64,000 nt of DNA from Mycobacteriaceae bacterium (GTDB lineage Bacteria > Pseudomonadota > Gammaproteobacteria > Burkholderiales > Burkholderiaceae_D). The first letter of the stretch is position 1. Each line of letters begins with the position of its first letter. The position numbers and the translations under genes are program-made. Under the pieces are notes generated by a model, which was given only the letters and a program-made list of their open reading frames with translations, did no database searches and had not been told where the DNA came from. Shown here one piece after another: positions 4,026 through 24,967 of this stretch. The DNA lies in contig CAJCHO010000104.1 of the NCBI GenBank assembly GCA_903970145.1, forward strand, positions 1 through 64,000, written 5' to 3'.

Positions 4026-4054
4026 TTGATTGAATGCCTGTTTAATAATATAGT
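4026..4054 (+). promoter_or_regulatory. sigma-70-like promoter for the potF-like gene, in the 3810-4141 gap
   Basis: TTGATT and TATAGT are separated by exactly 17 bases, about 90 bases upstream of the potF-like start. The remainder of this 332-base divergent region holds no convincing gene. A TTGAATGAACG stretch near 3899-3909 shares the TGAACG half-site seen in the palindrome at 17605. Confidence 0.45.
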
Positions 4055-4141
4055 TGCCGCTGCGGTGCAAAGCCCGGTGAGGCTTTGTGGAACGAGGTTT
4101 CGGGCGCACCCGACAGGGGCTGCCCAGTCAAGGATCACACC

Positions 4142-9075: not shown

Positions 9076-9144
9076 TATTTTGGGCGTCATTATGAATCCC
9101 GCATCTGCACAAATCCTGACCCATCAATCTCTGGAGCCATCAAC

Positions 9145-9726: not shown

Positions 9727-9817
9727 CGCGGGGCAAGCGGCCAGATTTGCGAGCCTGGCGCCTTATGCGGAACTCGTAGCGACCCGGTGGTCACGCGGGG
9801 TCCGCCAGGCGCCGCCC

Positions 9818-11896
9818 TCAGTCGCTGCCTGGGGCGATGAGGCGCACCAAGGCATCGACACCCCACACTGCGTCTTCGCAGGCAATCAATGGATTGACAT
9901 CGAGCTCGAGCAATTGCGCGGCGTGCTTCTCAGCGTAGTCGGCGATCGCTTCGATCGCGTCGATCACCTGATCCAGCTTCGCCTGGGGCTGACCACGGTA
10001 ACCATCAAGGAGTACGAAGCAGCGCAGGCTGCGCAGGGCGTCCTCGATGTCGGCACGCGTGGACGGCAGCAGCAGGGTTACCGAATCGGCGAGCAGTTCA
10101 ACCAGGATACCGCCGGCGCCAATCGTCAGCGCCAGGCCGAACTGGGCGTCGCGCGTTACGCCAACGATCAGCTCCGCGATGCCGCCCTTGACCATTTTCT
10201 CGACGAGGAACACGTCGAAATGGGCCTGAATTGAAGCGATCGCAGCGCGTACCGCGTCGGCATTGGCGAGATTGAGCTTGACCGCACCCATTTCAGTCTT
10301 GTGGGCAAGTCCGGCGGAGATCGCCTTGACGACGACCGGATAGCCAAGCTCCTCGGCCGCCTCGACGGCTTTTTCAAGGCCACGCGCACAACGTCCCTCG
10401 GGAATCTGCAGTCCGTGACGAGCCAATGCCGCCTTGGCACTCTGTTCGTCGAGCATGATCTCGGGGCCGACAGCGCGACGGCCGCTTGCGATCAGGTTTG
10501 TGATGCGAGCCTGATCGCGGCGCCGCGCCGCGATCCCCGCTGCGGCGGTGATTGCCACGACCGCCTCTCGCAGTCCCTGTAGGGGCGCGATGCCGGCGGC
10601 ATACAGGCGTTGCGCTGCCTCGGCAGGCATGAGCTCGGCCATCGAGCTGACCATGATGCATGGCTTGTCGGTGCTGGCGCGGGCGGCAATGAAACCCTTT
10701 ATCACATGGTCCCAGCCCGGCAGTGCGCCGGCTTCGGCGTTCGGGAAATCGAGCACCAGGAGGCACACATCAATCCGCGCCTTCATCATGCTGGTAAAAC
10801 ACGCCGTGAGCGCCGGCTCGTCTTCCCAGATATAGGTCTGGTAGTCGAGAGGATTATGTATGGCAACCAGCGGCCCGAGCGTCTGCGCGAGCTCACTGTG
10901 CACCGTGCTATCAAGCGTGGGGAATTCCAGCCCGAGGGTCTCGCCCAGATCGGCCATCATCAGCGCATCGCCACCTGAACAGCTCAAGGAGCCTACCCGC
11001 ACGCCTTCGACCGTGCCGCAGGTGTGCAGCAGTTTCAGGGTCTCGAGAAATTCCCCCAGTTCGGCGACCCGCGCGACTCCGAGGCGTCTGAATAGCGCCG
11101 TATACAGAACGTCAGAGCCTGCCAGTGAGCGCGTGTGACTGGCGGCGAGTTCTGCCCCGACCTCCGAGGCCCCGACCTTGAGTACGACGATCGGTATGCC
11201 CCTGGCAAGCGCCAGCTGCGCGGCCCTGGCAAATGCCGCCACATCTGTGAGCCCCTCCAGATAGAGACCGATTGCTGTCACCCGCTCGTCGTCGAGCACT
11301 ACCTCGATGCAGTCATGAATATCGGAGACAGCCTTGTTGCCCAGAGCGACCATGTAGGCAATGGGCAGGTGATGCCTTTGCATCGTCAGGTTAAGCGCGA
11401 TGTTGCCGCTTTGCGCGATGATCGCCACGCCGCGGGCAACGCGCGTTCCGCCAAAGTGGTCCGGCCACAGGGTGCAGCCATCAAGAAAGTTGATCACGCC
11501 GTAACAATTGGGCCCGAGCAGCGCCATCGGCCCGGCCGCCTCTACCAGCTGTTCCTGCAGCGCCACACCGTCGCCACCCACCTCCGCGAACCCGGAGGCA
11601 TAGCACACCGCGCCCGCAGCACCGCGCTTGGCCAGCGCCCTGACTACCTCGATCGTCTCGAGTCGCGGCACCGCGACGAAACTTGCCTCAGGAACGCCCG
11701 GCAGACTCGCCACGTCAGGGTAAGTCGCCATCCCTTCGATATGCGAGCGACGCGGATTGATGGGCCAGATCTGGCCCTTGTAGCCGATCTTGCGAGACTG
11801 TCTGATTACCTCGGCCGCGATCTCGCCACCCACCACGGCGATGCTGGCCGGATTGAAGAGCTGCTTGAGACGCGAAACCCTGTATTGTCCGTTCAC
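9818..11896 (-). CDS. ADP-forming acyl-CoA synthetase (acetate-CoA ligase type)
   Basis: This 692-residue fused alpha-beta enzyme converts an acid, CoA and ATP to acyl-CoA, ADP and phosphate, reversibly. The CoA-binding Rossmann domain occupies residues about 10-105 (FNPASIAVVGGE, WPINPRR). The ligase domains follow, with the phosphohistidine candidate H254 in ASHTRSLAGSD. An ATP-grasp domain spans about 480-690 (LGYPVVVKAISAGLAHKTE, GGIAELIVG, ELDVNPL). It is the last gene of the leftward operon, 98 bases after the aminotransferase. Its likely job is to activate or release the carbon skeleton left after transamination. The acid substrate cannot be read from the sequence. Confidence 0.93.
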   Translation of the reverse strand: MNGQYRVSRLKQLFNPASIAVVGGEIAAEVIRQSRKIGYKGQIWPINPRRSHIEGMATYPDVASLPGVPEASFVAVPRLETIEVVRALAKRGAAGAVCYASGFAEVGGDGVALQEQLVEAAGPMALLGPNCYGVINFLDGCTLWPDHFGGTRVARGVAIIAQSGNIALNLTMQRHHLPIAYMVALGNKAVSDIHDCIEVVLDDERVTAIGLYLEGLTDVAAFARAAQLALARGIPIVVLKVGASEVGAELAASHTRSLAGSDVLYTALFRRLGVARVAELGEFLETLKLLHTCGTVEGVRVGSLSCSGGDALMMADLGETLGLEFPTLDSTVHSELAQTLGPLVAIHNPLDYQTYIWEDEPALTACFTSMMKARIDVCLLVLDFPNAEAGALPGWDHVIKGFIAARASTDKPCIMVSSMAELMPAEAAQRLYAAGIAPLQGLREAVVAITAAAGIAARRRDQARITNLIASGRRAVGPEIMLDEQSAKAALARHGLQIPEGRCARGLEKAVEAAEELGYPVVVKAISAGLAHKTEMGAVKLNLANADAVRAAIASIQAHFDVFLVEKMVKGGIAELIVGVTRDAQFGLALTIGAGGILVELLADSVTLLLPSTRADIEDALRSLRCFVLLDGYRGQPQAKLDQVIDAIEAIADYAEKHAAQLLELDVNPLIACEDAVWGVDALVRLIAPGSD

Positions 11897-11994
11897 CCTG
11901 CCAACCTTCCCGATTAAAGAGGGCCCACGCGCAAGCCGGCGCTGCTGCGCGTCAGGCGCGGCGCCGGTTCACGCCTCGACCGGAGTTGCAAGCG

Positions 11995-13407
11995 CTACGC
12001 GACCTTGATGCCGAGCTCCTGCTCGACCTCGTGCATGGTCCGCACGATCCCCTCGCGCAGGATGTCGAACATGCGATCGATTTCCTGGTGCGTGATGATC
12101 AGTGGCGGCGAAAACACACACTGATTCACGAGTGGCCGCACCAACAGGCCGAGCTCGTGGCAATGACGATCGATCCGAGCCCCAAGGTCCGTGTCCAGTT
12201 CGAGTGCGCGCTCTTCGTCGACGTGGTAGTCCATCAGGTGAGCCACGGTGCATTCGACACAGCCAACGAGGCCCATGCCGCGGGCATCGAACACCATCGG
12301 GATATCGCGCAAGCCGTGCAGGCGCTCCAGAAAATGCGGGCTGACCTCACGCACATAGTCGAGAATTCCCTCGCGCTCGAAAATCTCGATGTTTTTCAAC
12401 GCGGCTGCGCACGCTACCGGATGCCCTGAATAGGTAAAGCCGGATCCAAAACTCGCGCCGCGCGCATTCTCCCCGGACACTTCCGAAAACAGGCGATCCG
12501 ATACCAGGCAGGCGCCCAGCGGGATATAGCCCGAGGTCAGTCCCTTGGCACAGATGATCATGTCAGGCTCGATCCCGAAGACTTCCTTGGACGCGAACCA
12601 GTGTCCAAGGCGCCCGAATCCCGTGACCACCTCGTCAGCAATGAACAGCACATCGTACTTGCGGCAGATCTCCCAGCAGCGCTTGAAGTAGCCGTCCGGT
12701 GGCACGATCACACCTCCGGAAGCCTGGATCGGCTCGGCGATGAAGGCACCCACATTGGCCGCACCCAGCTCGATGATCTTTTTTTCGAGATCATTGACCT
12801 TCTCGGTGCAGAAGGTCTCAAGGCTCATGCCTGTCGGTCGGCGCGCCGGATTGACGTGGGGCAGGATGTGCGCGAGCGGTGAAGCGATGTCGAACCAGTT
12901 TTTCTCGCGATCCTTGCCGGTCACGAGAGCACCCAGGTAGGTACTGCCGTGGTAGGCATTCTCGCGCGAGATGATGTGCTTTTTCCCGGGCCGACCCTTG
13001 ATGTTGTTGTAGTAGTGGACAAAGCGCAGCGCCGTGTCGACGGCAGTTGAGCCACCGGTTGTCAGGAACACGTGATTGAGGTCCCCGGGTGCCATGGCAG
13101 CCAGGCGCGCGGCCAGGCGCGCAGGCGGCGCGCTGGTTAGCGAAAACGGATTCATGTAGGGCAAGCGCATGACCTGCTCGGCGATCGCATCGGCCATCTC
13201 GCGACGGTTGTAGCCGATCTGCACACACCACATGCCCCCAGGCCCGTCGATCAGCTTCTGGCCGTTTTCGTCGTAGATGTAGATGCCTTCGCCGTGACTG
13301 GCGATAGCCCGATTGGCATGGCCGGCGTCAGGCATGAATTCCCAGGGATGGAACCAGCGGTTATTGTCGTCGCTGCGGATGCTTTGAAAATCGTGTGGCG
13401 GATTCAT
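11995..13407 (-). CDS. class III (omega) aminotransferase, PLP-dependent
   Basis: The product has 470 residues and resembles SpuC-type polyamine or omega-amino-acid:pyruvate aminotransferases. Visible features are the N-terminal substrate loop (DGPGGMWCVQIGY), the Gly-rich cofactor segment (TTGGSTAVDTALRF), YHGST, the cofactor Asp258 in FIADEVVTGFGR and the Schiff-base Lys288 in CAKGLTSGYIPLGA. The enzyme would convert a primary amine to an aldehyde while aminating pyruvate or a similar keto acid. It lies 17 bases downstream of potI, so amine import and transamination are co-expressed. The exact amine is unknown. Confidence 0.94.
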   Translation of the reverse strand: MNPPHDFQSIRSDDNNRWFHPWEFMPDAGHANRAIASHGEGIYIYDENGQKLIDGPGGMWCVQIGYNRREMADAIAEQVMRLPYMNPFSLTSAPPARLAARLAAMAPGDLNHVFLTTGGSTAVDTALRFVHYYNNIKGRPGKKHIISRENAYHGSTYLGALVTGKDREKNWFDIASPLAHILPHVNPARRPTGMSLETFCTEKVNDLEKKIIELGAANVGAFIAEPIQASGGVIVPPDGYFKRCWEICRKYDVLFIADEVVTGFGRLGHWFASKEVFGIEPDMIICAKGLTSGYIPLGACLVSDRLFSEVSGENARGASFGSGFTYSGHPVACAAALKNIEIFEREGILDYVREVSPHFLERLHGLRDIPMVFDARGMGLVGCVECTVAHLMDYHVDEERALELDTDLGARIDRHCHELGLLVRPLVNQCVFSPPLIITHQEIDRMFDILREGIVRTMHEVEQELGIKVA

Positions 13408-13424
13408 AGGGGTCCTTGCTGCTT

Positions 13425-14261
13425 CTAGCTTTGCGAGTAACTCAGGTAGATCTCACGCTCGCGCCGCCTTTGACGGGCCAGCATGAAATGATTGTTGACG
13501 ACGACCACGACACTGACGATGCCGATGAAAAGCGTGCCAAGGGCATTGATCTCGGGATTCAGACCGACCCGGGCGCGCGAGAATACGATCATAGGCAGGA
13601 GCGTCGAGTCAGGACCGGAGAGAAACGCCGTCATCAGTACGTCGTCGATGGAAATCGTGAACGACAGCAGCCAGCCCGAAATCAGCGCCTGGGAAATAAG
13701 CGGGAGCGTGATATCCCAGAACACGCGCAGCGGTGTCGCGCCCAGCACCTGGGCCGCCTCGTGCAGTGATTCGTCCATGCTTAACAGACGCGAATGCACC
13801 GTGATCGCCACATAGGACACGCACAGCATCGTGTGCCCAATCCAGATGGTGAGCATTCCCCGTTCCGGCCAGCCAAAGGCCTGTTGCATGGCGACAAAAA
13901 GCAGCAGCAGCGAAATGCCCTGGATCACCTCGGGGATGACCAGGGGGGCATTGATCATGCCGGTGAAAAGCGTCATGCCGCGAAAACGCGTAAAGCGCGC
14001 CAGCACATAGCCTGCCCAGGTACCGATCAGTACCGCCGAGAAGGAAGTGGCAACCGCAATCCGCAGGCTCGCCCAGGCAGCCGCGAGCAGTTCCTCGTCC
14101 TCGGTCAGCGCGACATACCACCTGAAGGAAAAGTGGGTCCAAACGCTGACGAGCTTGGATTCATTGAACGAATAGATGACCACGCAGACCGTGGGCACAT
14201 AGAGGAACAGGAAGACCAGCGCCAGATAGCCGCCTCCGAGCCATTTGTTGACGCGACTCAT
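13425..14261 (-). CDS. potI: polyamine-type ABC transporter permease, PotI-like
   Basis: This inner-membrane protein of 278 residues has six predicted helices, starting with YLALVFLFLYVPTVCVVIYSF. The cytoplasmic EAA loop (ESLHEAAQVLGATPLRVFWDITLPLI) contacts the ATPase. The ATG overlaps the stop of the PotH gene by 4 bases, so the two permeases are translationally coupled. They form the heterodimeric channel for the ligand of the PotF-like protein. The sequence is full length for the family. Confidence 0.94.
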   Translation of the reverse strand: MSRVNKWLGGGYLALVFLFLYVPTVCVVIYSFNESKLVSVWTHFSFRWYVALTEDEELLAAAWASLRIAVATSFSAVLIGTWAGYVLARFTRFRGMTLFTGMINAPLVIPEVIQGISLLLLFVAMQQAFGWPERGMLTIWIGHTMLCVSYVAITVHSRLLSMDESLHEAAQVLGATPLRVFWDITLPLISQALISGWLLSFTISIDDVLMTAFLSGPDSTLLPMIVFSRARVGLNPEINALGTLFIGIVSVVVVVNNHFMLARQRRREREIYLSYSQS

Positions 14262-15172
14262 GATTCCGCCAATTCACGCTGACGCACGCGCTGGAACCAG
14301 GCCATGGGCAAGAGTAGCAAGAGGACCATCGCGACGGTTGCAGCCGAAGCCGAGGGCCAGTCGGTGTTCACGAAGAAATCGTCCCACATGACGCGACCGA
14401 TCATCAGCGAGTTCGACCCGCCCAGCAGTTCCGGGATCACGTATTCGCCAACGGCCGGGATGAACACGAGCAAAGAAGAGGCGATGATGCCGCGGCGCGA
14501 CATGGGCAGCGTGATCGTAAGAAAGGCGCGCCAGGGTCGCGCACCGAGGTCGGATGCTGCCTCCACCAGGGTGAAGTCGAGCTTCACGAGGTAGGCGTAC
14601 AGGGGCAGCATCAGATAAGGCAGATAGTTGTAGACCATGCCAATCATCAGGCCCCAGTTGTTGTGATAGAGCTTCAGAGGCTCGTCACGCAGCGTTGTCC
14701 AGATCAGGAAGTCATTGATCAGGCCCTGGTTTTTCAGGAGGCCAATCCATGCATAGACGCGGATCAGGTAACTGGTCCAGAAAGGCAGCATCACCAGCAT
14801 CAGCAGCAGATTGCGCCAGGCCGGGTTGCTGCGCGCGATCAGGTAGCACGCCGGGTAACCGATCAAGAGGCACAATAGCGTCGTAGCTCCGGCAATCAGC
14901 AGTGAAAACAGGTAAGCATTGATGTACAGCGAGTCGGTTGCGACCGAAACGTAGTGCTCGAAATTCAAGGCGATCTGCAAAAAGCCATCGCGAAACTGTG
15001 CAAGAGGGGTATAGGGCGGCACGCTCATTTGCGTGTTCGCAAAGCTGATCTCGAAAACCGCGCCAAAGGGCAAGAGGAAAAACACCAGCAGAAAGCTAAA
15101 AGGCACGGCGATGACGATCGTCCTGCCCGACGGCAGCAACTTAGCCAGTCGTGCCGTACGGGCGGCATTCAT
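14258..15172 (-). CDS. potH: polyamine-type ABC transporter permease, PotH-like
   Basis: The inner-membrane permease has 304 residues from the ATG at 15172 ([13 protein letters not shown]). That codon overlaps the PotG stop as ATGA. Six hydrophobic segments are visible (TIVIAVPFSFLLVFFLLPFGAVF first). The EAA motif is VEAASDLGARPWRAFLTITLPM. Longer in-frame extension upstream only repeats PotG sequence in another frame and was discarded. It pairs with PotI and with the ATPase PotG. Confidence 0.94.
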   Translation of the reverse strand: MNAARTARLAKLLPSGRTIVIAVPFSFLLVFFLLPFGAVFEISFANTQMSVPPYTPLAQFRDGFLQIALNFEHYVSVATDSLYINAYLFSLLIAGATTLLCLLIGYPACYLIARSNPAWRNLLLMLVMLPFWTSYLIRVYAWIGLLKNQGLINDFLIWTTLRDEPLKLYHNNWGLMIGMVYNYLPYLMLPLYAYLVKLDFTLVEAASDLGARPWRAFLTITLPMSRRGIIASSLLVFIPAVGEYVIPELLGGSNSLMIGRVMWDDFFVNTDWPSASAATVAMVLLLLLPMAWFQRVRQRELAES

Positions 15173-16302
15173 TTGGTCAGCACCACAAGACAGTCCGCGT
15201 CCCAGCTCAGGTAGACGGTGTCGCCGTAGTCGGGCGCCGGATCCAGCGCGCGCACTGCCATGCGCGACAGATCGACCATCATCAGGCGGCCGCCATCGAG
15301 GCGAACATGGAAAACCGTATAGCTGCCCATATAGGCGTACTGTTCGATCTTGCCGCAGGCCCAATTCGAGTCCTTGTGCGGCTTCTGCGCTGACATCGTG
15401 ATGCGCTCCGGTCGCAGCGAGAGCTGGGCGACCATGCCCTTCTTGGCATTCATGGCGTTGGGGACTTGCAGCGGATTGGCCAGATCGGCACATTCGAAGC
15501 TGCGTGACTCATCGCCATCGAGCACGCCGCCAAACAGGTTGGTCGAGCCGATGAACTCGGCGGCAAAGCGGCTCGTCGGGGTCTCGTAGACCTGGTGGGG
15601 CGTGCCCATCTGCACAATGCGCCCGTCGCTCATCACCGCCAGGCGGTCGGCCATGGTCATCGCTTCCTCCTGATCGTGGGTCACCATGATGCAGGTGACT
15701 CCCACCGAGTAGAGAATGTGACCCAGCTCGAACTGGGTCTGCTGGCGAATCTTCTTGTCGAGCGCCGACATCGGTTCATCGAGCAGCAGCAGTTTGGGGC
15801 GCTTGACGAGGCTGCGCGCGAGGGCGACACGCTGCTGCTGGCCGCCGGACAACTGGTGCGGTTTGCGCTTGGCGTACTTCCCCATCTGAACCAGCTCGAG
15901 CGCCGCGGCAACGCGCTCGCGGATCTCTTCTTTGGCACGACCTTCGCGCTTGAGGCCATAAGCCGCATTGGCTTCGACAGTCATGTGCGGAAACAGCGCA
16001 TACGACTGGAACATCATGTTCACCGGACGCCGATAACTGGGCAAAAGAGTGATGTCCTCGCCGTCGACGATGATGCGTCCCGAGTCGGGTAGGGTCAGGC
16101 CGGAGATCAGGCGTAGCAGGGTCGATTTGCCGCAGCCGGAGCTTCCCAGAAGCGCGAACAGCTCGCCCTTCTTGATCGACAGGCTCAGCGAATCGACCGC
16201 CGTCGATTCCCCAAAATGCTTGGTGACCTCGACGATGCGCACGAAGTCGGCCGGGGCCTCTCCCATGCCTGGTTTTTGCGGCCGCGCTGCTTCGTTCGTC
16301 AT
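15169..16302 (-). CDS. potG: polyamine-type ABC transporter ATPase, PotG-like
   Basis: The 377-residue ATPase powers amine import. Walker A is GSSGCGKST (residues 53-61), the Q-loop is [13 protein letters not shown], the signature LSGGQQQR starts at residue 151, Walker B is LLLLDEP and the switch His is in [10 protein letters not shown]-terminal TOBE-type regulatory region follows (LRPERITMS). Overall it matches E. coli PotG closely. One change is MSALDKK where PotG has MGALDKK. The gene follows the acyl-CoA dehydrogenase gene by 83 bases in the same transcription direction. Confidence 0.95.
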
Positions 16303-16385
16303 GACTCTACCAGTGCACCAGTTCGGTTACCGAGATAGCGAGCGCCTGCCACTGCGCCGCGATGGCGGCGCGACTGCGCCCTTGC

Positions 16386-17561
16386 CTAACCTATCAGATT
16401 ATCGACACCACGCTTGAGCAGGCTGCGGGCAATGATGAGGCGCTGGATTTCGCTGGTGCCTTCCCAGATGCGATCAACGCGCAACTCCCGGTAGAAGCGC
16501 TGCGCGGCGTTGCTGCGCAGGTAGCCACGCCCCCCAAAAATCTGTACGACCCGGTCGGCAACCCGATTGGCCATTTCCGAGCCGGTCAGCTTGGCCATCG
16601 AGCAGTGGGTGTGAACCACCGCGAGATCGTCACCGCGGTCCTGCATGGCCGCTGCCTCATAGGTCATCAGGCGGCTACCCCAGAGTTCGGTGAGGCTGTC
16701 GGCCAACATCGCCTGGATCAGCTGGTATTCGGAAATCGGCTGCCCGGATACGACCCGCGCCTTTGCGAATTCGGCGCCCATCTCGATGAGCCGCGCCGCA
16801 GCACCGCAGCAGCGCGCCGCGATCATCAGGCGTTCGCGACGAAACCAGCTGCGCGTGTAGTTCATGCCGCCCCCGATCGGGCCGATGCGATTGGCCGCCG
16901 GCACGCGCACCCGGTTAAAGCGATAGGTCGGATGATGCGAGGAATAAGTATGGCCGAACAAGGGGTTGTCGATCATCTCAATGCCGGGAGCATCGAGGTC
17001 AACGAAGAACAGAGCATGCTGCTTTTGCCCGTCCTGGGTCCCGGTTATCGCCTGCAGGAAAAAGAAATCTGCCTTGTTCGCGCTGGTAACAAACCATTTC
17101 TCGCCATCGATGACATAGTGATCCCCTTCGAGTCGCGCCGTCGTGGTGATGGCGTCGTTGTCGGAGCCCGCCTCTTCCTCGGTGATCGCATAGCACTCGC
17201 GACGCTTGCCGGCCATCATCGGCTTTATATAGCGCTCAAGCTGGTCCGGACTGCACGCGTCGAACATCCATGAATGCGCCTCGGGAACGCTCCAGCACAG
17301 GGCATTGGTGACTCGCCCCAACTGCTCCCAGATGACGACCTGATCGAGCATTGGCAACTGCAGGCCACCATGTAGCAGGGGTGCATCGATCCTGCTCAAT
17401 CCAAGCGCGAGCCCCCCGGCCTTCTGGCGCGCCACGATCTCGGCAGGCAGAACCCCTTCATTGAGCTCGGCCTGTTCCTCATGCGGAATCAGTTCCTCTT
17501 CGGCGTATTGGCGCGCCTTGCGCTGCCACTCGAGGGTCGATGATGAAAGGGGGTAAGCCAT
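16386..17561 (-). CDS. acyl-CoA dehydrogenase
   Basis: This 391-residue flavoprotein would oxidise an acyl-CoA to an enoyl-CoA and pass electrons to ETF. Visible motifs are the FAD segment YAITEEEAGSDNDAITTTA, the middle-domain WFVTSANKADFF, QIFGGRGYL and the catalytic base E367 in IWEGTSEIQR. Length and domain order are normal. It is the first gene of the leftward operon, ahead of the importer. The start at 17561 follows AGGAAA. Acyl-CoA dehydrogenases next to amine importers are unusual. The likely substrate is the CoA ester of the deaminated amine skeleton (inference). Confidence 0.93.
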   Translation of the reverse strand: MAYPLSSSTLEWQRKARQYAEEELIPHEEQAELNEGVLPAEIVARQKAGGLALGLSRIDAPLLHGGLQLPMLDQVVIWEQLGRVTNALCWSVPEAHSWMFDACSPDQLERYIKPMMAGKRRECYAITEEEAGSDNDAITTTARLEGDHYVIDGEKWFVTSANKADFFFLQAITGTQDGQKQHALFFVDLDAPGIEMIDNPLFGHTYSSHHPTYRFNRVRVPAANRIGPIGGGMNYTRSWFRRERLMIAARCCGAAARLIEMGAEFAKARVVSGQPISEYQLIQAMLADSLTELWGSRLMTYEAAAMQDRGDDLAVVHTHCSMAKLTGSEMANRVADRVVQIFGGRGYLRSNAAQRFYRELRVDRIWEGTSEIQRLIIARSLLKRGVDNLIG

Positions 17562-17604
17562 GGATTTTTCCTGTTATCGGAGTTCGCGCGCCCGTCTTCG
17601 CGGT

Positions 17605-17619
17605 CGTTCATATTGAACG
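17605..17619. promoter_or_regulatory. BetI-box-like palindrome in the divergent control region
   Basis: CGTTCA-TAT-TGAACG is a perfect palindrome 44 bases upstream of the acyl-CoA dehydrogenase gene. TTGAACG/CGTTCAA half-sites resemble reported BetI boxes. The BetI-like TetR protein encoded at 5340 is the natural candidate to bind here. The rest of the 17562-17896 region holds no gene. Confidence 0.45.
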
Positions 17620-17808
17620 GTAATACAAAATAGATTCACTTGCAATCCATGTCGCGGCAATTGCGGCAGGACAGCATCGAATCGCAGCGCACAATCCGTG
17701 CCGTCAATCCACCCCTGCCCCGTGGCAGCGTCAGGCTGTTGCGCTGCATGGCAGGCCTGCCGGCAACGCGCCGGATCAAGCCACAACATCACCCGACTAT
17801 TGCCTCTA

Positions 17809-17847
17809 TTGAACAATCGTATTACAATTTCCTAAACGATTGTACAA
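17809..17847. promoter_or_regulatory. long inverted repeat over the rightward operon promoter
   Basis: The arms TTGAACAATCGT (17809-17820) and ACGATTGTACAA (17836-17847) match in 11 of 12 positions around a 15-base AT-rich spacer. A TACAAT -10-like hexamer at 17843-17848 lies in the right arm, about 50 bases before the first gene of the rightward operon. A bound dimer or pair of dimers would cover the promoter. Confidence 0.5.
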
Positions 17848-17896
17848 TATTGACGGGCCTTTCAGCTAGCGGCTGCTTCGCTCTGGCGAGGCACAG

Positions 17897-19516
17897 ATGA
17901 GAACAGGGGATAAACCGGTGGACAAGCAATTTGACGCGATCGTCGTCGGGGCCGGCCACAATGGCCTGGTGACGGCCTGCTACATGGCGCGAGCCGGGCT
18001 CAAGGTGCTGGTACTGGAGCGCAAATCGATCGTCGGCGGCGCGGCAGTCAGCACGTCGCTCTACAAGGACTTTACCTACTCGAACTGCTCCTACGTGTGC
18101 AGTCTGCTGCGTCCGGAAATCATCCGCGGACTGGAGTTGCCCCGCTATGGACTGCAGGTGATCCCCTATGAAGGGGGTGGCACGCTGATGAGCAACGGCG
18201 AGCACTTTGCGACCTATACCAATCACGACGCCATGCGCCGCGAGATCGCGCGCCATTCCAAACGCGATGCCGAGGCCTACGACCGCTACTCGCGCGATGT
18301 CATGCGCCAGTGCAAGTTCATCAAGCCCTTATTGATGCACACGCCGCCGGACCCAAGCTCGTTTCTGCCGCGCGATCTGATGGAACTGGTCTACCTTGGC
18401 CAGCGCTTTCACAATCTCGGCGAAGCGCGCATGTACGACACGATCCGCTTCTACACCATGAGCGCCGCCGATTTTCTCGAGGAGTATTTCGAAAGCGATA
18501 TCGTCAAGGCGCACATGGGCGGCACCTCGATCATCGGCACGGCACTCGGACCCCGATCACCGGGAACCGCTTACGTACTCTTGCACCACTACATGGGCGA
18601 CATCGATGACGCGGTCGGCGCCTGGGGCTTCGCGCGCGGCGGCATGGGTGCGGTGACCGCCGCCATGCGTGCCTCGTTCGAGGCCAGTGGCGGTACGGTA
18701 CGCACGGACGCCGAGGTCGACCAGATCCTCGTGCGCCACGGACGCGCCAGTGGTGTCGCGTTAAAAAGCGGTGAGGAAATTCATGCCAAGACGGTGGTCT
18801 CGAACCTCGACGTCAAGCGCACCTTTCTTAACACCGTCAACGAGAAAGACCTGCCCGCCGAATTCGTGCGTGCGGTGCGCAATTTCAAGATCCGCGGCTC
18901 CTCGGGCAAGCTCAATATCGCGCTCGATGGACTGCCGAGCTTCCCTTCATTCCCCAAGGATTCGCCCTGCATTCGGGGCGACCTGCACATCACCGACACG
19001 CTCGACATGGTCGAGCGCGCCTACGACGACTGGAAGGCGGGACGCTGGTCGCAAAAGCCCTACGTCGACATGCTGCTTCCCTCGCTGATCGATCCAACCA
19101 TGGCGCCCGATGGCAAGCACTACATGTCAGTGTTCGTTCAGTACGCGCCCTACAAGCTCGCCTCAGGTGAGTGGGACGCGGCGAACCGGACTGCGTTTGG
19201 CAACACGGTCATCAATGCGATCGCCGCGCACAGCCCCGATTTCAAGGACAAGATCCTGCATGCCGAAGTGCGTTCCCCGTGGGATATCGAGAATGAAGTC
19301 GGCCTCACCGAGGGCAATATTTTCCAGGGTGAACTGACCATGGACCAGTTGCTGTTCAATCGCCCGATTCCGGGCTACGCCCAGTACCGCTCGCCGGTCA
19401 AGGGTCTCTATATGTGCGGCTCGAGCACCCATCCCGGAGGGGGGGTGATGGGCGCGCCCGGCGCCAACGCCGCGCGCGCTATTCTCGGTGATCTGGGCCG
19501 GGGGCAAGCATCATGA
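17897..19516 (+). CDS. FAD-dependent oxidoreductase, phytoene desaturase/PYROXD2-like (first of pair)
   Basis: This 539-residue flavoprotein has an N-terminal dinucleotide-binding fold (VVGAGHNGLVTACYMARAG, GAGHNG at residues 18-23, then LERKSIVGGAA). The C-terminal FAD-closing motif is YMCGSSTHPGGGVMGAPG. The family resembles phytoene desaturases and amine oxidases and is represented by human PYROXD2. Bacterial members mostly lack a known substrate. ATG 17897 follows GGCGAGG, and a GTG 21 bases on is possible. The stop overlaps the start of its paralogue by 4 bases. In this operon it would oxidise an amine or a C-N bond (inference). Confidence 0.92.
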   Translation: MRTGDKPVDKQFDAIVVGAGHNGLVTACYMARAGLKVLVLERKSIVGGAAVSTSLYKDFTYSNCSYVCSLLRPEIIRGLELPRYGLQVIPYEGGGTLMSNGEHFATYTNHDAMRREIARHSKRDAEAYDRYSRDVMRQCKFIKPLLMHTPPDPSSFLPRDLMELVYLGQRFHNLGEARMYDTIRFYTMSAADFLEEYFESDIVKAHMGGTSIIGTALGPRSPGTAYVLLHHYMGDIDDAVGAWGFARGGMGAVTAAMRASFEASGGTVRTDAEVDQILVRHGRASGVALKSGEEIHAKTVVSNLDVKRTFLNTVNEKDLPAEFVRAVRNFKIRGSSGKLNIALDGLPSFPSFPKDSPCIRGDLHITDTLDMVERAYDDWKAGRWSQKPYVDMLLPSLIDPTMAPDGKHYMSVFVQYAPYKLASGEWDAANRTAFGNTVINAIAAHSPDFKDKILHAEVRSPWDIENEVGLTEGNIFQGELTMDQLLFNRPIPGYAQYRSPVKGLYMCGSSTHPGGGVMGAPGANAARAILGDLGRGQAS

Positions 19517-21069
19517 GTCTGCGCTATCAGCACATCATCATCGGCGCCGGACACAACGGACTCGTGTGCGCGACCGTATTGGCCCGGCGCGGGCGCTCGG
19601 TGCTCGTTGTCGAGGCAAGCGATCACGTCGGCGGCATGGCGATCACCCGCGAGTTCGCGCCCGGTTTCAAGGTCTCCGCGTGCGCCCATCTGCTGCACGC
19701 ACTGCCAGCGTCCCTCATCAGGGAGCTTGACCTTGCGCGCCACGGGCTGGACTTTGCCGCCAAGCGCATGCCCACCTACGCGCTTAACGCCGACGGGCCG
19801 CCAGTCGTCATCGACGGGACGTCCGTGACGGGCGTGAGCCCCGCCGATACCCAGGCCTTCGCGAAATTTACCCGCGAGACCGCTCGCTTTGCCGGCGTGA
19901 TCGCAGGCGTGCTGGCCGTGGAGCCCTTTGGATTATCGCTCGCGAGCTGGCGCGAGCGCCTCACCGCACTGCGTCTGGGACTGCGCGTGCGGCTGCTCGG
20001 CAAGCGCGCCATGCGCGAATTCCTGCGAATTGTCGGCATGAACGCTTACGATCTGCTGGCTGACAATTTCGAGTCCACCCTTCTAAAGGGTGCATTGGCC
20101 TTCGACGCGACTCTGGGCGCCGAACATGGTGCGCGCTCGCCCGGAACGGTGCTGACCCTGCTGCACCGGCGCGCGGGACTCAGTCATACCGGAGCCGCGG
20201 GCCTGGCACAGCCGTTTGGGGGGATGGGCGCCGTCAGCGATGCGCTGGCCGCCGCCGCCCGCGCCGCCGGCGTCGAGATCCGAACCAATAGCGCGGTCAA
20301 GAAAATCCTCGTGACTGGCGATCGTGCCAGCGGTGTGGTGCTTCAGACCGGTGAGTCCATCGAAGCCGATTCGGTCATCTCCAGCGCGGACCCCAAAACG
20401 ACTTTCCTCAAACTCCTCGGTGCACGCTACCTCGATACGGACTTCGTGAGACGGGTTGATCACTTCCGCTCGAAGGGCGTTGTCGCCAAACTGCATCTGG
20501 CACTCGATGGCGCGCCGGTATTTACCGGAATCGATGTGACGGGTCAGGCGGCACGGATGATCATCTCGCCATCGATGGACTACCTGGAGCTGGCCTTCAA
20601 TCCTTCCAAGTATCGCCAGATACCAGAGCATCCGGCGCTCGAGATCAGCATGCCGAGTTTCAACGATCCGGCGCTGGCTCCCGCGGGCAAACACGTCATG
20701 TCGGTCAACATCCTGTTCGTGCCCTATGACATGGGGCCCGATGAGGCGGAGGCACGCAAGGCGCTCCTGGAGAACGTGATCGCGACGCTCGAGCGCCATG
20801 CCCCGGGCATCCGCGGGCGGATCCTCGCCAGCGAGCTCCTCACCCCGCGCGACCTGGAGCGCGAATTCGGCGTGGCCGGCGGCCACTGGCACCACGGCGC
20901 CATGTCCTTCGACCAGTTCTTCTTTACCCGCCCCGTTCCGGGAGCGAGCAACTACGCGACGCCGCTGGCAGGCCTCTACCTATGCGGCGCCGGCAGCCAT
21001 CCCGGTGGCGGAGTCATGGGACTGGCCGGGCGTAACGCGGCACACAAAGTCATCCAAGGAGGCAACTGA
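19513..21069 (+). CDS. FAD-dependent oxidoreductase, phytoene desaturase/PYROXD2-like (second of pair)
   Basis: The 518-residue product is homologous along its whole length to the preceding one. It shares the nucleotide-binding start (IIIGAGHNGLVCATVLARRG, VVEASDHVGG), the FDAT-LGAEHGARSPGT segment and the C-terminal LCGAGSHPGGGVMGLAG. The divergence between the two is large, so this is an old duplication with probably distinct roles, or a heteromer. The ATG overlaps the upstream stop (ATGA). AAGGAGG near its end serves the next gene. The substrate is unknown. Confidence 0.92.
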   Translation: MSLRYQHIIIGAGHNGLVCATVLARRGRSVLVVEASDHVGGMAITREFAPGFKVSACAHLLHALPASLIRELDLARHGLDFAAKRMPTYALNADGPPVVIDGTSVTGVSPADTQAFAKFTRETARFAGVIAGVLAVEPFGLSLASWRERLTALRLGLRVRLLGKRAMREFLRIVGMNAYDLLADNFESTLLKGALAFDATLGAEHGARSPGTVLTLLHRRAGLSHTGAAGLAQPFGGMGAVSDALAAAARAAGVEIRTNSAVKKILVTGDRASGVVLQTGESIEADSVISSADPKTTFLKLLGARYLDTDFVRRVDHFRSKGVVAKLHLALDGAPVFTGIDVTGQAARMIISPSMDYLELAFNPSKYRQIPEHPALEISMPSFNDPALAPAGKHVMSVNILFVPYDMGPDEAEARKALLENVIATLERHAPGIRGRILASELLTPRDLEREFGVAGGHWHHGAMSFDQFFFTRPVPGASNYATPLAGLYLCGAGSHPGGGVMGLAGRNAAHKVIQGGN

Positions 21070-21070
21070 G

Positions 21071-22279
21071 ATGCTCGCCAACAGCAATCAGCGTGCGCAT
21101 TATCTGCGCCCCCTGCTGACGACGCCCTTTTTTGAGCGCAGCCAGTATCTGGTCGAAACCGATACCTACGTTCCGTGGTCGGGCTATTCGACGCCGGACG
21201 TGTTTTCATCGGTGGAGCAGGAATATTTCGCGATCCGCAACTCGGCGTCGGTGTTCGATCTGACGCCGATGATCAAGTACCGCATCACCGGACCGGACGC
21301 GGAACCGTATCTGAATCACCTCATCACCCGCGACGTAACCAAGCTCAAGGTCAATCGCGTGGCTTACACCGTCTGGTGCAACGAGGCCGGTCATGTTATC
21401 GACGACGGCACGGTGTTTCGCTTCGGTCCCAACGAGTTTCATCTGTGCACGGCCGAACGCCAGCTCGACTGGTTCCTCGATGGTGCAATCGGCTTTGACG
21501 TTCAGGTCAGCGAAGTAACCGAGCAGATCGCCGCACTCGCCCTGCAGGGACCGACCTCCTGTGCCGTGCTCAAGGCGATGGGCCTTGCCGGTGTCGAAAA
21601 ACTGACCCTGTTCGAGATGGGCCACTTCAAGCTTGGCGAACTCCCCCTCATGGTCTCGCGCACCGGATTTACGGGCGATCTTGGCTACGAGCTGTGGATC
21701 GCCCCGGAAGGCGCCGTCGCGCTCTGGGACAAGCTCATGGAGGCTGGCAGCAACAAAGGCATTCGCGCCATCGGCTACCAGGCGCTCGACATGGCACGCA
21801 TCGAGGCCGGCTTCATACTGCCCAATGTCGATTTCATATCAGCCGCCAATACCGTTCGGCTAAGGCGCGAAACGACACCCTTCGAGCTCGGCTTGGAGTG
21901 GCTGGTCGCGATGGAGAAGGGACACTTCAATGGCCGCCGTGCTCTGGTCGAGGAGAAAAAGCGGGGTTCGCGGCGACGCCTGCTCGGTCTTGAAATCAGC
22001 GGCAAAAAGCCCGCACACGGCTCACTGATCTATGCTGACAAGGAAGGAAATATCGAGGTCGGCGACATCAAATCCGCGTTGTGGTCACCAACCTGCAAGC
22101 GCAATATCGCCCTGGCGATGATCGATGCACCGCACTTCAGCACTGCCAAGGAATTCTGGGTCGATATTTATGTCCACCGCGAACTGCAGTGGGATCGGCG
22201 CATGGAGCGGGCCTGGGTGGTCGACCGGCCATTTTTTGCGCCGGACCGGCGCAAAGTCACTCCAGCGGGAGACCGCTAG
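21071..22279 (+). CDS. aminomethyltransferase-family folate protein, GcvT/DmdA-like
   Basis: The product has 402 residues. The ATG at 21071 follows AAGGAGG by 8 bases. It has the GcvT fold: SASVFDLTPMIKYRITGPDAEPYLNHLITRD near the start, the folate-site segment CNEAGHVIDDGTV (D111/D112), ALQGPTS, SRTGFTGDLGYELWI and the C-terminal barrel (FELGLEWLV, RRRLLGLEI). Such proteins move a methyl or methylene group from a substrate to tetrahydrofolate, as in GcvT, dimethylglycine dehydrogenase-type enzymes or the DMSP demethylase DmdA. With PurU in the same operon, it points to demethylation feeding the C1-folate pool. No H, P or L proteins of glycine cleavage are present. Confidence 0.92.
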   Translation: MLANSNQRAHYLRPLLTTPFFERSQYLVETDTYVPWSGYSTPDVFSSVEQEYFAIRNSASVFDLTPMIKYRITGPDAEPYLNHLITRDVTKLKVNRVAYTVWCNEAGHVIDDGTVFRFGPNEFHLCTAERQLDWFLDGAIGFDVQVSEVTEQIAALALQGPTSCAVLKAMGLAGVEKLTLFEMGHFKLGELPLMVSRTGFTGDLGYELWIAPEGAVALWDKLMEAGSNKGIRAIGYQALDMARIEAGFILPNVDFISAANTVRLRRETTPFELGLEWLVAMEKGHFNGRRALVEEKKRGSRRRLLGLEISGKKPAHGSLIYADKEGNIEVGDIKSALWSPTCKRNIALAMIDAPHFSTAKEFWVDIYVHRELQWDRRMERAWVVDRPFFAPDRRKVTPAGDR

Positions 22280-22354
22280 GCGGTCGCCGGAGTCTGTACC
22301 CTCTCTGCTAGCCACAGGATCAAGCGGTCATAGGGATTTTGTTGGAGAACGCAT

Positions 22355-23620
22355 ATGAGCACGCTGCAAACAATCAAACTGCACGCCAAGGCGGCGCCCG
22401 GTCGCGACAGCTTGCGCGCGGCGCTTGCGGACTATCGTCCGGGACACGCCCTGCCTCAATCTTTCTACCAGGATCCGACGATCTTCGAGCATGATATGCG
22501 CTCGTTCGTCATGGCTCACTGGCACTGCGTCGGTCACGCCAGCATGGTCCCCAATCCAGGCGACTTCTTCACCGTCGAGATCGGCACCGAATCGATCATC
22601 ATCGTGCGCGGCAAGGACAGGCAGATCCGCGCCCTGCTCAACGTCTGTCGCCATCGCGGTTCACGCGTGTGCACCGAGAGCCAGGGTACCGCCAAGAACG
22701 GCATGTTCGTCTGTCCCTATCACGCCTGGACCTATAGTTGCACTGGTGAGCTCGAGCGCGCGCGCCTCATGCCCGAGGATTTCAGGAAGTCTGACTACGG
22801 TCTAAAGCAGGTCCCGCTACGGGTTTGCGAAGGCGTTCTTTTCATCACCTACAGTGCCGATCCCCTCGATTTCGCGCGGGTAGAAGAATCGTTCGGTCAC
22901 GCGGCCAAGGTATACGGCTGGGCAAAAGCCAAGGTCGCATTGCGCAAGATGTATGCGATCAACGGTAACTGGAAGCTCGTCGCCGAGAACTACCAGGAGT
23001 GCTACCACTGCGGTCCGGCCCACCAGGAATATTCCAAGCGCCACGTGTTCGCGCGTCCCCAGGCGCAGCGCGAGGCAGCCGATCAGGCCATGGCAGCGCG
23101 CGATGCCGAACTGGGAATCGGGCTCACCGATGTTGATTGTTTCGCCGAGGATGCCGGTTTGGGGCATGAGAGCGCCGACAGTTGCCGCTCGGCTCTGCTG
23201 GACGGCTATCTGACAGGCAGTCGCGACGGCCAGCTGGTTGCGCCATTGATGGGTGAGTTCAAGGGAAAGCGCTCGGACGGTGGATTCTCGTTTCTCGATG
23301 TCGGGCCGACTTCCAACTTCGTCGCTTACCCCGACTACGGCCTCATCTATCGCACGATTCCTCTGACCGCAAGCAAGACCGCCTTCGAGCTGATCTGGCT
23401 GGTCGACGAAAACGCCGTCGAGGGCACCGACTACCGCACCGACGATGTCGCCTGGATGTGGGACTACACCAGTCTCGAGGACAAGAAGATCATCGAGTTC
23501 AATCAGGCAGGCGTCAACTCCGCTTTCTTCGAGCCGGGTCCGTACACGCCCATGGAGAGTGACGCGGCGCGCTTTGTCGACTGGTACATCTCGAGCATGC
23601 GCCAGGTGGCGGCCGGCTAG
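22355..23620 (+). CDS. Rieske [2Fe-2S] oxygenase of the glycine betaine/carnitine demethylase type
   Basis: The 421-residue oxygenase subunit carries the Rieske ligands C98-R-H100 and C120-x-x-H123. The mononuclear iron site is in WKLVAENYQECYHCGPAHQEYS, with H218 and H223 as ligands. The ECYHC context is typical of the GbcA, choline monooxygenase and CntA group that hydroxylates N-methyl groups or cleaves quaternary amines. GGAG precedes the ATG. It sits between a folate methyl-transfer protein and a cupin, supporting oxidative N-demethylation. The ferredoxin-reductase partner usual for this group is not encoded in the window. Confidence 0.93.
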   Translation: MSTLQTIKLHAKAAPGRDSLRAALADYRPGHALPQSFYQDPTIFEHDMRSFVMAHWHCVGHASMVPNPGDFFTVEIGTESIIIVRGKDRQIRALLNVCRHRGSRVCTESQGTAKNGMFVCPYHAWTYSCTGELERARLMPEDFRKSDYGLKQVPLRVCEGVLFITYSADPLDFARVEESFGHAAKVYGWAKAKVALRKMYAINGNWKLVAENYQECYHCGPAHQEYSKRHVFARPQAQREAADQAMAARDAELGIGLTDVDCFAEDAGLGHESADSCRSALLDGYLTGSRDGQLVAPLMGEFKGKRSDGGFSFLDVGPTSNFVAYPDYGLIYRTIPLTASKTAFELIWLVDENAVEGTDYRTDDVAWMWDYTSLEDKKIIEFNQAGVNSAFFEPGPYTPMESDAARFVDWYISSMRQVAAG

Positions 23621-23700
23621 GCGGCCCCGACTCCAGAACAGAAACCCGCTGGCAGACACCAGTGACCGCTCGTTCCCGATCTTTTTGACAACACCCAGCC

Positions 23701-24060
23701 ATGGATACCCAAAAGCACCTGTTCCTGCATCGACAAGCACGTCCGGCGATCGAAGTCGACTCGCCCTGGCCCGGTACTGTCATCTCCGGTGATCCCCATA
23801 CCCTCACCATGAACGGCTACGCATCGCCGGACGGCAAGCTCCTCATGGGCGTCTGGCAATCGACCCCGGGTCTCTGGTCAATCGACTACCACGACTGGGA
23901 GTATTGCCACTTTCTTGAAGGGCGCTGCGTGATCACCCCACAGGGTGGCACCCCGGTCGAGCTTGCGGCGGGCGACGTCTTTGTGATCGAGCCGGGACTC
24001 AAGGGCACCTGGGAAGTGCTGGAGACGGTTCGCAAGTACTACGTCTTTTCCTTGTCCTGA
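23701..24060 (+). CDS. small cupin-domain protein (Cupin_3/DUF861-like)
   Basis: This is a 119-residue single-domain cupin. The two beta-barrel motifs can be seen as WSIDYHDWEYCHFLEGRCVITPQGG and LAAGDVFVIEPGLKGTWEVLE. The metal-binding His set of classical cupins is reduced, as in the (S)-ureidoglycine aminohydrolase-like and EutQ-like families. It could bind a pathway intermediate or act as a small hydrolase or regulator of the Rieske enzyme. It is co-directional, 80 bases after the oxygenase gene. Confidence 0.85.
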   Translation: MDTQKHLFLHRQARPAIEVDSPWPGTVISGDPHTLTMNGYASPDGKLLMGVWQSTPGLWSIDYHDWEYCHFLEGRCVITPQGGTPVELAAGDVFVIEPGLKGTWEVLETVRKYYVFSLS

Positions 24061-24118
24061 TGAGACGGTCGTTGAATTGCCGGACAGATACCGGCTCACA
24101 TGCATACGGAGTATCGGA

Positions 24119-24967
24119 GTGAACGAAGAATATATCCTGACCCTCTCCTGCCCTGATCGCGTGGGCATCGTCCATGCAGTCTCGGGTCTGTTGACCGCGA
24201 CGTCCTGCAATATCCTGGATAGTGCGCAACACGCCGACCTCGGGACTGGTATGTTCTTCATGCGCATCAAATTTGCCGGAGGAGATGTTTCGCGCGGCGA
24301 ACTGGAGAGCCGCTTTGAAGTGGTTGCGCGCGAATTCAAGATCCAGTGGCAGTTGCACGACGCCAGTCACCGCCCGCGGGTGCTGCTGCTGGCCTCCAAG
24401 ATCGGCCACTGCCTGAACGATCTCCTGTACCGCCATTCCTCGGGGCTTCTGGCCGCAGACGTGCGCGGGGTTGTTTCCAATCATGGGGACTTCGAGGCGC
24501 TCACCCGCGCCCATGGCCTGCCCTTCTACCATTTCCCGGTCAGTAGCGAGAATCGCGTCGAGCAGGAAGCGAGGATCCTGTCGCTGATCGATTCGGAGCG
24601 CATCGAACTCGTCGTACTGGCGCGTTACATGCAGGTACTGTCGCCGAACCTGTGTCGTGCCCTATCGGGCAAGGCAATCAATATCCACCACTCCTTTCTG
24701 CCCAGTTTCAAGGGGGCGAAGCCATATGCGCAAGCGCACGAGCGCGGCGTCAAGCTGATCGGAGCGACCGCTCACTTCGTTACCGAGGATCTCGACGAGG
24801 GGCCGATCATCGAGCAGGACGTAGCGCGGGTCGACCATGGCTACTCGGTCGAACAGATGACGGCCACCGGACGGGATGTCGAGAGCGTCGTACTGTCGCG
24901 CGCGGTGAGCTGGTTCATCCAGCGCCGCCTGCTGCTAAACGGCAGCAGGACGATCGTGTTTCGCTAG
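24119..24967 (+). CDS. purU: formyltetrahydrofolate deformylase
   Basis: The product has 282 residues, close to E. coli PurU (280). The start is GTG 24119 with GGAG 7 bases upstream; an in-frame ATG earlier gives a tail that does not match the family. An ACT domain (LTLSCPDRVGIVHAVSGLL) precedes the formyltransferase-type hydrolase domain. Catalytic residues lie in INIHHSFLPSF, GATAHFV and DLDEGPII. The enzyme hydrolyses 10-formyl-THF to formate and THF. As the last gene of a demethylation operon it would recycle THF and drain C1 units, as reported for PurU genes in betaine and sarcosine clusters. Confidence 0.95.
   Translation: MNEEYILTLSCPDRVGIVHAVSGLLTATSCNILDSAQHADLGTGMFFMRIKFAGGDVSRGELESRFEVVAREFKIQWQLHDASHRPRVLLLASKIGHCLNDLLYRHSSGLLAADVRGVVSNHGDFEALTRAHGLPFYHFPVSSENRVEQEARILSLIDSERIELVVLARYMQVLSPNLCRALSGKAINIHHSFLPSFKGAKPYAQAHERGVKLIGATAHFVTEDLDEGPIIEQDVARVDHGYSVEQMTATGRDVESVVLSRAVSWFIQRRLLLNGSRTIVFR

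Follow-up and report, generated by a model that had tools for sequence, protein, structure and literature searches.

Glycine betaine catabolism in Pseudomonas is encoded by the gene set gbcA-dgc-sox-purU, and it is with this set that we compare a locus of two divergent operons on contig CAJCHO010000104.1 of assembly GCA_903970145.1, a draft bacterial genome of 3.47 Mb in 135 contigs that is 94.6% complete. The window, meaning the whole stretch of DNA analysed, comprises the first 64,000 nucleotides of that contig, and its closest named relatives are metagenome-assembled genomes from bogs, one of which is labelled Burkholderiales. Common to the locus and the Pseudomonas set are PurU, presumed demethylation by flavoproteins that work with a folate domain, and a presumed first step by a Rieske enzyme, whereas the locus draws on another flavoprotein family and also carries a Pot importer, a class III aminotransferase, a CoA ligase and an acyl-CoA dehydrogenase.

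A GcvT-type domain coupled to N-demethylation is likewise common to the locus, the trimethylamine N-oxide (TMAO) demethylase Tdm, dimethylglycine dehydrogenase and heterotetrameric sarcosine oxidase, but the GcvT-like protein of the locus stands alone beside two flavoproteins of the PYROXD2/CrtO type, here called FP1 and FP2. Homarine catabolism (Nat Microbiol 2026, cited in PMC13390433) resembles the locus, as it is cited there, in concerning environmental bacteria and an N-methyl substrate. Among the matches listed from the open-licence literature searched, none describes the cluster, which agrees with the claim of the initial annotation that no characterised pathway has this gene set; as far as searched, the module is undescribed.

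The module is real and conserved, its role is presumably catabolic, and its mechanism class is fairly likely to be the one set out below. On balance, we consider it probable that the locus forms one regulon through which an N-methylated amine supplies carbon and nitrogen, by way of import, demethylation to folate, transamination and, in some lineages, CoA-linked breakdown.

Two divergent operons and their conserved partners

Twelve genes had been named in the initial annotation, in two operons reading outward from a 335-base control region. All twelve are intact open reading frames (ORFs) at the places given, family searches agree with their names, and the control region is the gap at 17562-17896. 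The features, first leftward and then rightward from that gap, are as follows.

17562..17896, no strand: shared divergent control region, the gap between both operons
16386..17561, minus strand: acyl-CoA dehydrogenase (Pfam; best NCBIfam match acryloyl-CoA reductase, 198.9 bits, cut-off 640)
15169..16302, minus strand: PotG-type ATPase (TIGR01187 above cut-off; NF008621 462.1 bits, cut-off 613)
14258..15172, minus strand: PotH-type permease (NF007963 389.2 bits, cut-off 489)
13425..14261, minus strand: PotI-type permease (NF007889 307.7 bits, cut-off 476)
11995..13407, minus strand: class III aminotransferase, AT3 (NF005447 672.9 bits, cut-off 618)
9818..11896, minus strand: ADP-forming acyl-CoA synthetase, the CoA ligase (ATP-grasp_5, Succ_CoA_lig; NCBIfam ligases all below cut-offs)
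17897..19516, plus strand: flavoprotein FP1 (Amino_oxidase, NAD_binding_8)
19513..21069, plus strand: flavoprotein FP2 (Amino_oxidase)
21071..22279, plus strand: GcvT-like folate-type protein (GCV_T 217.2 bits, gathering threshold 25.6)
22355..23620, plus strand: Rieske oxygenase, betaine N-demethylase group (best NCBIfam match GbcA, NF058607, 281.5 bits, cut-off 670)
23701..24060, plus strand: EutQ-type cupin, lineage-specific (Cupin_3)
24119..24967, plus strand: PurU, 10-formyltetrahydrofolate deformylase, lineage-specific (TIGR00655 above cut-off)

Overlaps of 4 bases join FP1 to FP2, PotG to PotH and PotH to PotI, and GcvT begins directly after FP2. The start sites of PotH (15172), GcvT (21071) and PurU (24119) were preferred over those of the mechanical ORF list, that of PurU because similarity to a relative begins at residue 15.

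Relatives were collected by a scan of genome contigs with an FP1 alignment, the best 80 of 177 confirmed stretches being retained, and partners were sought by tblastn. The relatives were chosen by FP1 alone, and many of the 80 loci end early at contig ends. In the 37 loci with full flanks (at least 21.5 kb, partners counted with no identity threshold), FP2 and GcvT are each present in all 37, the aminotransferase in 35, a TetR regulator in 34, at least two Pot subunits in 31 and the Rieske oxygenase in 23. Thinning at 90% FP1 identity left 55 loci, 28 of them with full flanks, with similar partners (FP2 28, GcvT 28, aminotransferase 26, TetR 24, at least two Pot subunits 23, Rieske 18). Linkage of both operons in other genomes had been set beforehand as the test that could refute the annotation: the aminotransferase together with two Pot subunits was found in 30 of the 37 full-flank loci, and in none of 21 control windows (19 stretches of 20 kb taken from genomes in the same family or order as the window, and two of 18 kb from the window). 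The controls held scattered matches only, such as a weak aminotransferase and one Pot subunit in control L119. Because the same partners recur in relatives chosen by FP1 and are absent as a set from the 21 controls, the recurrence lies far beyond chance.

Across all 80 loci, with identity thresholds applied, FP2 was matched in 78, GcvT in 65, the aminotransferase in 65, TetR in 63, at least two Pot subunits in 51 and the Rieske oxygenase in 41, followed by the acyl-CoA dehydrogenase (22), CoA ligase (16), aldehyde dehydrogenase (10) and enoyl-CoA hydratase (5). In the two loci lacking FP2 the contig stops just after FP1, and in the 15 lacking GcvT, those two among them, it stops at most 229 bases past the last flavoprotein match; other than at such contig ends, FP1 without FP2 or GcvT was not seen among the 80 loci. 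The reading of the locus as a module is thus upheld for the importer, the flavoproteins, GcvT and the aminotransferase, and less regularly for the Rieske oxygenase, but not for the remaining genes. PurU (2 of 80 loci) and the cupin (1 of 80 at 40% identity or more, 2 of 80 without a threshold) are limited to the window's lineage, as is formate release, and the ligase and acyl-CoA dehydrogenase belong to some lineages only.

The conserved unit would seem to be steps rather than genes, because in two instances alternative enzymes for one step never share a locus. At the identity thresholds used, two non-orthologous class III aminotransferases, AT3 (33 of 80 loci) and a GntE/HemL-like one (32 of 80), are never found together; the same holds for the two types of ADP-forming ligase, one seen in 5 and the other in 11 of the 80 loci. 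In four loci (L038, L060, L071 and L074; partial sets occur elsewhere) the trio of FP1, FP2 and GcvT is accompanied by a ligase, an aldehyde dehydrogenase, an enoyl-CoA hydratase and a glutamine-synthetase-like protein, a set that would carry an amine to the aldehyde, the acid, the CoA ester and onward.

Judged by record titles, alpha-, beta- and gammaproteobacteria all carry the module. When 398 genomes were drawn separately from the window's phylum, FP1 was present in 11, the window genome included; within 20 kb in the other ten, five of which are of one genus, the trio was found in 10, TetR in 10, the aminotransferase in 8, at least two Pot subunits in 7 and the Rieske oxygenase in 2. Named plasmids of Parasedimentitalea, Rhizobium SL42, Fuscovulum and Shinella zoogloeoides carry the module, that of Fuscovulum in one colinear run (aminotransferase-FP1-FP2-GcvT-Rieske-Rieske-PotFGHI). 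The titles of L011 (Rhodospirillales), L034 (Paceibacterota) and L048 (Mesoflavibacter) are ill-matched to their clusters, which resemble those of other Proteobacteria, and these bins or labels may be wrong. In L086, where the locus consists of FP1-FP2-GcvT and cupins only, the neighbouring gene (5660-9451) encodes a large pentapeptide-repeat protein whose C-terminal domain is SopA-like; L086 and L135, variants with few partners, gave no substrate clue.

Flavoproteins, folate-type protein and Rieske oxygenase

Searches place FP1 and FP2 among amine-oxidase/CrtO-type flavoproteins, and both miss the CrtO and CrtI cut-offs (NF045689 and TIGR02734; FP1 scores 295 against 1000 and 120 against 238, FP2 242 against 1000 and 125 against 238). 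The AlphaFold2 model of FP1 (mean predicted local distance difference test score 87.8) has carotenoid desaturases as its first fold neighbours, followed by nicotine oxidoreductase, putrescine oxidase and MAO. These last neighbours would suit an account in which FP1 and FP2 act as dehydrogenases of polyamines or other amines and cleave a C-N bond of the chain, GcvT serving ordinary one-carbon salvage after Rieske demethylation. We regard this as very improbable, given that all 37 full-flank loci have GcvT beside the flavoproteins, whereas the Rieske oxygenase is seen in 23 of them.

Lysine 338 of FP1 is invariant in 81 of 81 alignment rows, in a column that we take to be the one where flavin amine oxidases such as MAO and LSD1 have their catalytic lysine. 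The same column of FP2 holds lysine in 60, arginine in 11 and a gap in 2 of 73 rows, and in alignments the FP2 lysine falls opposite a serine of phytoene desaturase 4dgk and opposite a gap in 4rep. The arginine loci (L039, L042, L045, L046, L047, L049, L050, L054, L056, L059 and L075) are mostly of Hoeflea type. As proof of amine oxidation the invariant lysine is weakened by distant relatives without GcvT, which show lysine or arginine: in six plasmid relatives drawn from 32 records of less than 60% identity, the residue is lysine in four and arginine in two, and five of the six have no GcvT nearby.

FP2 keeps its FAD-binding glycines and is far less conserved than FP1. This difference, the arginine rows, the presence of FP2 with FP1 in all but two of the 80 loci (both on contigs that stop just past FP1), the 4-base FP1/FP2 overlap and the position of GcvT directly after FP2 would all be accommodated if FP1, FP2 and GcvT formed one complex for one demethylation in the manner of heterotetrameric sarcosine oxidase, FP2 being a subunit for electron transfer or for structure. 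Such an arrangement, which agrees with our proposal except in the number of steps, appears unlikely; the glycines and the mostly retained lysine of FP2 argue against it, as does a single flavoprotein paired with GcvT on a Shinella plasmid. That plasmid, of Shinella sumterensis (L096:434-13164), carries one distant flavoprotein with GcvT, an ADP-forming ligase, an enoyl-CoA hydratase, a 3-hydroxyacyl-CoA dehydrogenase, BKACE and ATP-binding cassette (ABC) permeases, and is likely to represent a second folate-linked demethylation set. A flavoprotein of the trimethylamine/histamine-dehydrogenase family, assigned on the L039 copy (L039:927-2969), lies near the module there and in 13 other loci, mostly of marine alphaproteobacteria by their titles.

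The best solved match of the GcvT-like protein is the C-terminal part of TMAO demethylase, followed by T-protein, and there are further matches to dimethylglycine dehydrogenase and sarcosine oxidase. Its SRTGxxGDxGYE-type folate motif is conserved, with E209, to which we ascribe a folate role, present in 64 of 64 rows, and it scores below the T-protein equivalog TIGR00528 (195.6 against 235.85). Used as a query against the window genome, it matched one other protein, with 30% identity across residues 35-356, which is probably the ordinary T protein.

The Rieske oxygenase has the CxH/CxxH ligands and, in alignment with 3n0q, 3vca, 4qup and 6y8j, the stretch ECYHC in place of the dioxygenase pattern; its solved neighbours are 3n0q, 3vca (presumably the stachydrine demethylase Stc2), 4qup and carnitine monooxygenase. 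The glutamate of ECYHC we take to be significant for the betaine N-demethylating group, to which Stc2, CntA and GbcA belong and in which the window's enzyme, with the same stretch, is also placed, its score lying below the GbcA cut-off. A second, more distant Rieske-type stretch (306-995; 27% to the main one) lies near the contig start, next to the TonB receptor described below.

The nearness to GbcA raises the question of glycine betaine. FAO_M, which we assume to mark dimethylglycine and sarcosine dehydrogenases, carnitine 3-dehydrogenase and crotonobetainyl-CoA hydratase were searched in 12 genomes with the trio. Nine of these (five of eight genera; five of the nine are one genus) hold 4-11 FAO_M matches each, and no match was found in the window genome (G000), G010 or G380. 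Since FAO_M is plentiful in the nine, the trio there probably serves something else, and glycine betaine as the general substrate is unlikely. The proposed folate transfer is the same as that of dimethylglycine and sarcosine dehydrogenases, but with a different flavoprotein family. The cluster could stand in for the usual enzymes that break down glycine betaine, dimethylglycine and sarcosine, as the lack of FAO_M matches in the three genomes, and the single other GcvT match in that of the window, would allow; we hold this to be quite improbable, the nine FAO_M-rich genomes speaking against it, together with the class III aminotransferase and Pot importer, which glycine betaine breakdown does not need. 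Because no FAO_M, carnitine-marker or BKACE match was found in the window genome or G010 at the cut-offs used, the trio may be the only folate-linked N-demethylase in these two.

Import, regulation and the carbon chain

The Pot importer had been claimed within 9818-24967, where PotG, PotH and PotI are indeed encoded; no binding protein is found there, a PotF-type one lying instead at 4085-5239. The twelve linked genes stand, but PotF, a TetR regulator and a TonB-dependent receptor, all outside those coordinates, had been overlooked. Synteny and operator-like sites indicate that the locus extends to include the following features.

1197..3824, minus strand: TonB-dependent receptor (Pfam TonB barrel and plug)
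4028..4047, either strand: palindromic operator-like site between TonB receptor and PotF, 3 mismatches to TATTRAACGNNNRTAYARTA
4085..5239, plus strand: PotF-type polyamine-binding protein (NF007962 326.5 bits, below the cut-off of 636)
5340..5978, plus strand: BetI-type TetR regulator (TetR_N, TetR_C_6)
17611..17630, plus strand: operator-like site on the acyl-CoA-dehydrogenase side, 1 mismatch to TATTRAACGNNNRTAYARTA
17807..17826, plus strand: third operator-like site, 3 mismatches, spanning the left arm of the 14-base inverted repeat I1
17830..17849, plus strand: operator-like site on the flavoprotein side, 2 mismatches to TATTRAACGNNNRTAYARTA

Between TetR and the ligase, a DoxX protein and a WYL-domain regulator are encoded in 5979-9817, along with unplaced ORFs. 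This segment looks like an insertion, since PotF and TetR stand immediately before the ligase in L010, L011 and L012, and the four of its ORFs that were tried had no match in the 80 relative loci.

The 20-base motif TATTRAACGNNNRTAYARTA was drawn from the aligned control regions. In the window it has 5 matches at 4 places with up to 3 mismatches, against 0.14 expected, all in the FP1 control region or between the TonB receptor and PotF; a control scan gave 1 site in 380 kb (up to 2 mismatches). Counterparts of the pair at 17611-17630 and 17830-17849 occur in the control regions of L010, L011, L012, L016, L018, L019 and L020, and no pair was found among 8 more distant loci scanned (up to 2 mismatches). 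Since sites of this kind gave rise to the motif, its matches in the control regions are no independent evidence; the independent sites are that at 4028-4047 and one before PotF in L012 (2 mismatches). The module is apparently co-regulated, and the candidate regulator is the BetI-type protein (TetR_N 50.5 bits, TetR_C_6, a BetI-type C-terminus, 79.6 bits, both above cut-off), which is matched by tblastn in 60 of the 80 loci (63 in the count with identity thresholds given above) and would bind the operator-like sites.

The importer has the same four subunit families as the PotFGHI and Spu putrescine importers, but all four subunits miss the PotF/G/H/I equivalog cut-offs and only the broader subfamily TIGR01187 is passed. 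SpuD, SpuE and PotF are the closest solved proteins to the binding protein. Matched by motif, its pocket retains the proximal S38, D39 and D247 and the aromatic box W37, W244 and F276 of PotF, whereas in the distal part D278 is replaced by threonine and E185 by aspartate; threonine replaces D278 in the window, L010, L011, L012, L014, L016 and L019. S38, D39 and D247 have been assigned to the primary amine, and D278 and E185 are present in at least 96% of 250 PotF relatives, according to PMC8666671. With the primary-amine site kept and D278 and E185 changed, the ligand would therefore probably have one primary amine and a different far end. The TonB receptor is 41-50% identical to receptors in L023, L025-L028 and L031, and 29-35% in L063 and L021. 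Near PotF in L021, L027 and L028, a TmpA-like dioxygenase (365.9 bits in L027, cut-off 400) is followed by an HD-domain protein, possibly a trimethylaminoethylphosphonate pair beside the module; an HD-domain protein near PotF is also present in L014, L015 and L022.

The retained primary-amine site would equally suit a route in which the chain is dealt with first, an N-trimethylated diamine being transaminated at the primary amine that is free, oxidised to the betaine acid, activated with CoA and beta-oxidised, and the short betaine demethylated last by the Rieske oxygenase, FP1, FP2 and GcvT. Carnitine 3-dehydrogenase-type and crotonobetainyl-CoA-hydratase-type matches occur in 9 of the 12 trio genomes. 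In G374, carnitine 3-dehydrogenase (above cut-off) adjoins the cluster, beside a crotonobetainyl-CoA-hydratase-like gene (290 bits, cut-off 500), an acyl-CoA dehydrogenase, an ADP-forming ligase (43% to that of the window) and a betaine-aldehyde-dehydrogenase-like gene. In L024, L025, L026 and L033, PotF has BKACE nearby, which in the first two also stands next to a ligase. These neighbours favour the chain-first order, which we nonetheless judge unlikely: in the window genome and G010, both drafts about 94% complete, no match to carnitine 3-dehydrogenase, BKACE or crotonobetainyl-CoA hydratase was found at the cut-offs used. With these markers not found in either genome, carnitine and gamma-butyrobetaine were also set aside as the window's substrate.

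Among solved structures AT3 matches 3i5t best, and the chains that follow include some deposited as transaminases of putrescine and of polyamines; for the acyl-CoA dehydrogenase one solved homologue was found at the threshold used (4u83), with no substrate assignment.

Proposed route and its meaning

The proposed regulon, in its reactions, their order and the substrate, is read from the genes, their conservation, the shared operator-like sites and the folate-type and Rieske motifs. The TonB receptor and the Pot-type ABC importer would take up an N-methylated amine, and the Rieske oxygenase would strip a methyl group from its quaternary nitrogen, releasing formaldehyde. The N-methyl groups still left would be oxidised by FP1 and FP2 together with the GcvT-like protein, the one-carbon unit going to tetrahydrofolate, and in the window's lineage PurU would give folate back. 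The class III aminotransferase would convert the primary amine to an aldehyde, and the CoA ligase and acyl-CoA dehydrogenase, where present, would channel the chain into beta-oxidation, the need for which would be explained by a chain of at least five carbons. The most likely substrate class is an N-methylated diamine or omega-amino acid of the lysine or polyamine type. Lysine-derived methylamines lead, although trimethyllysine, trimethylcadaverine and 5-trimethylaminovalerate are each unlikely when taken singly.

Several observations weigh against this proposal. The Rieske oxygenase is missing from the flanks retrieved for 14 of the 37 full-flank loci and for 8 of the 10 drawn genomes, and no reductase for it was recognised among the locus genes, a genome-wide search for one not having been made. 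FP1 is nearest in fold to carotenoid desaturases, FP2 has arginine at the lysine column in 11 of 73 rows, and the distant plasmid relatives vary there and mostly lack GcvT. L016 and L019 have PotF but no operator-like site before it (up to 2 mismatches), and PurU, the cupin, the ligase and the acyl-CoA dehydrogenase are not general parts of the module.

Human PYROXD2, FP1 and FP2 belong, we assume, to one broad flavoprotein family. A published 12-residue PYROXD2 peptide, as given in PMC13096502, matches FP2 at 8 of 12 positions and FP1, at the same place, at 5. Its median score is 30 for 73 FP2 proteins, 19 for 81 FP1 proteins and 13 for 815 other ORFs; 20 of the 815, which carry no flavoprotein label, reach a score of 25, and the highest-scoring one, in L014, is an FP2 that fell outside the clustering. 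As proof of orthology the peptide is weakened by bacterial relatives without GcvT that share the motif, and for this reason FP2 is placed in the broad family of PYROXD2 and no closer, on a comparison of that single peptide. According to PMC8109053, 50% of the variance in plasma N6-methyllysine in one cohort, and 48% of that in N6,N6-dimethyllysine, is explained by a missense variant of PYROXD2, which is also associated with trimethyllysine and N-methylpipecolate. Taken together, the motif and the methyllysine association suggest a way to probe PYROXD2 function.

If the proposal holds, the module would be a widespread catabolic route for methylated nitrogen compounds in bog, soil and marine bacteria (habitats by record titles), and a flavoprotein family of unclear function would gain a chemically sensible role. 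That PYROXD2-family flavoproteins are folate-linked demethylases of N-methyl amines, and the cluster a pathway for free N-methylated lysine or for diamine or betaine derivatives, is put forward tentatively, as a possibility we still doubt. The epsilon-alkyllysinase activity of Paik and Kim is reportedly mitochondrial and, to our knowledge, an orphan activity. Were this view correct, human PYROXD2 would be the mitochondrial demethylase of free methyllysine, that is, the epsilon-alkyllysinase, and the bacterial trio would show its mechanism.

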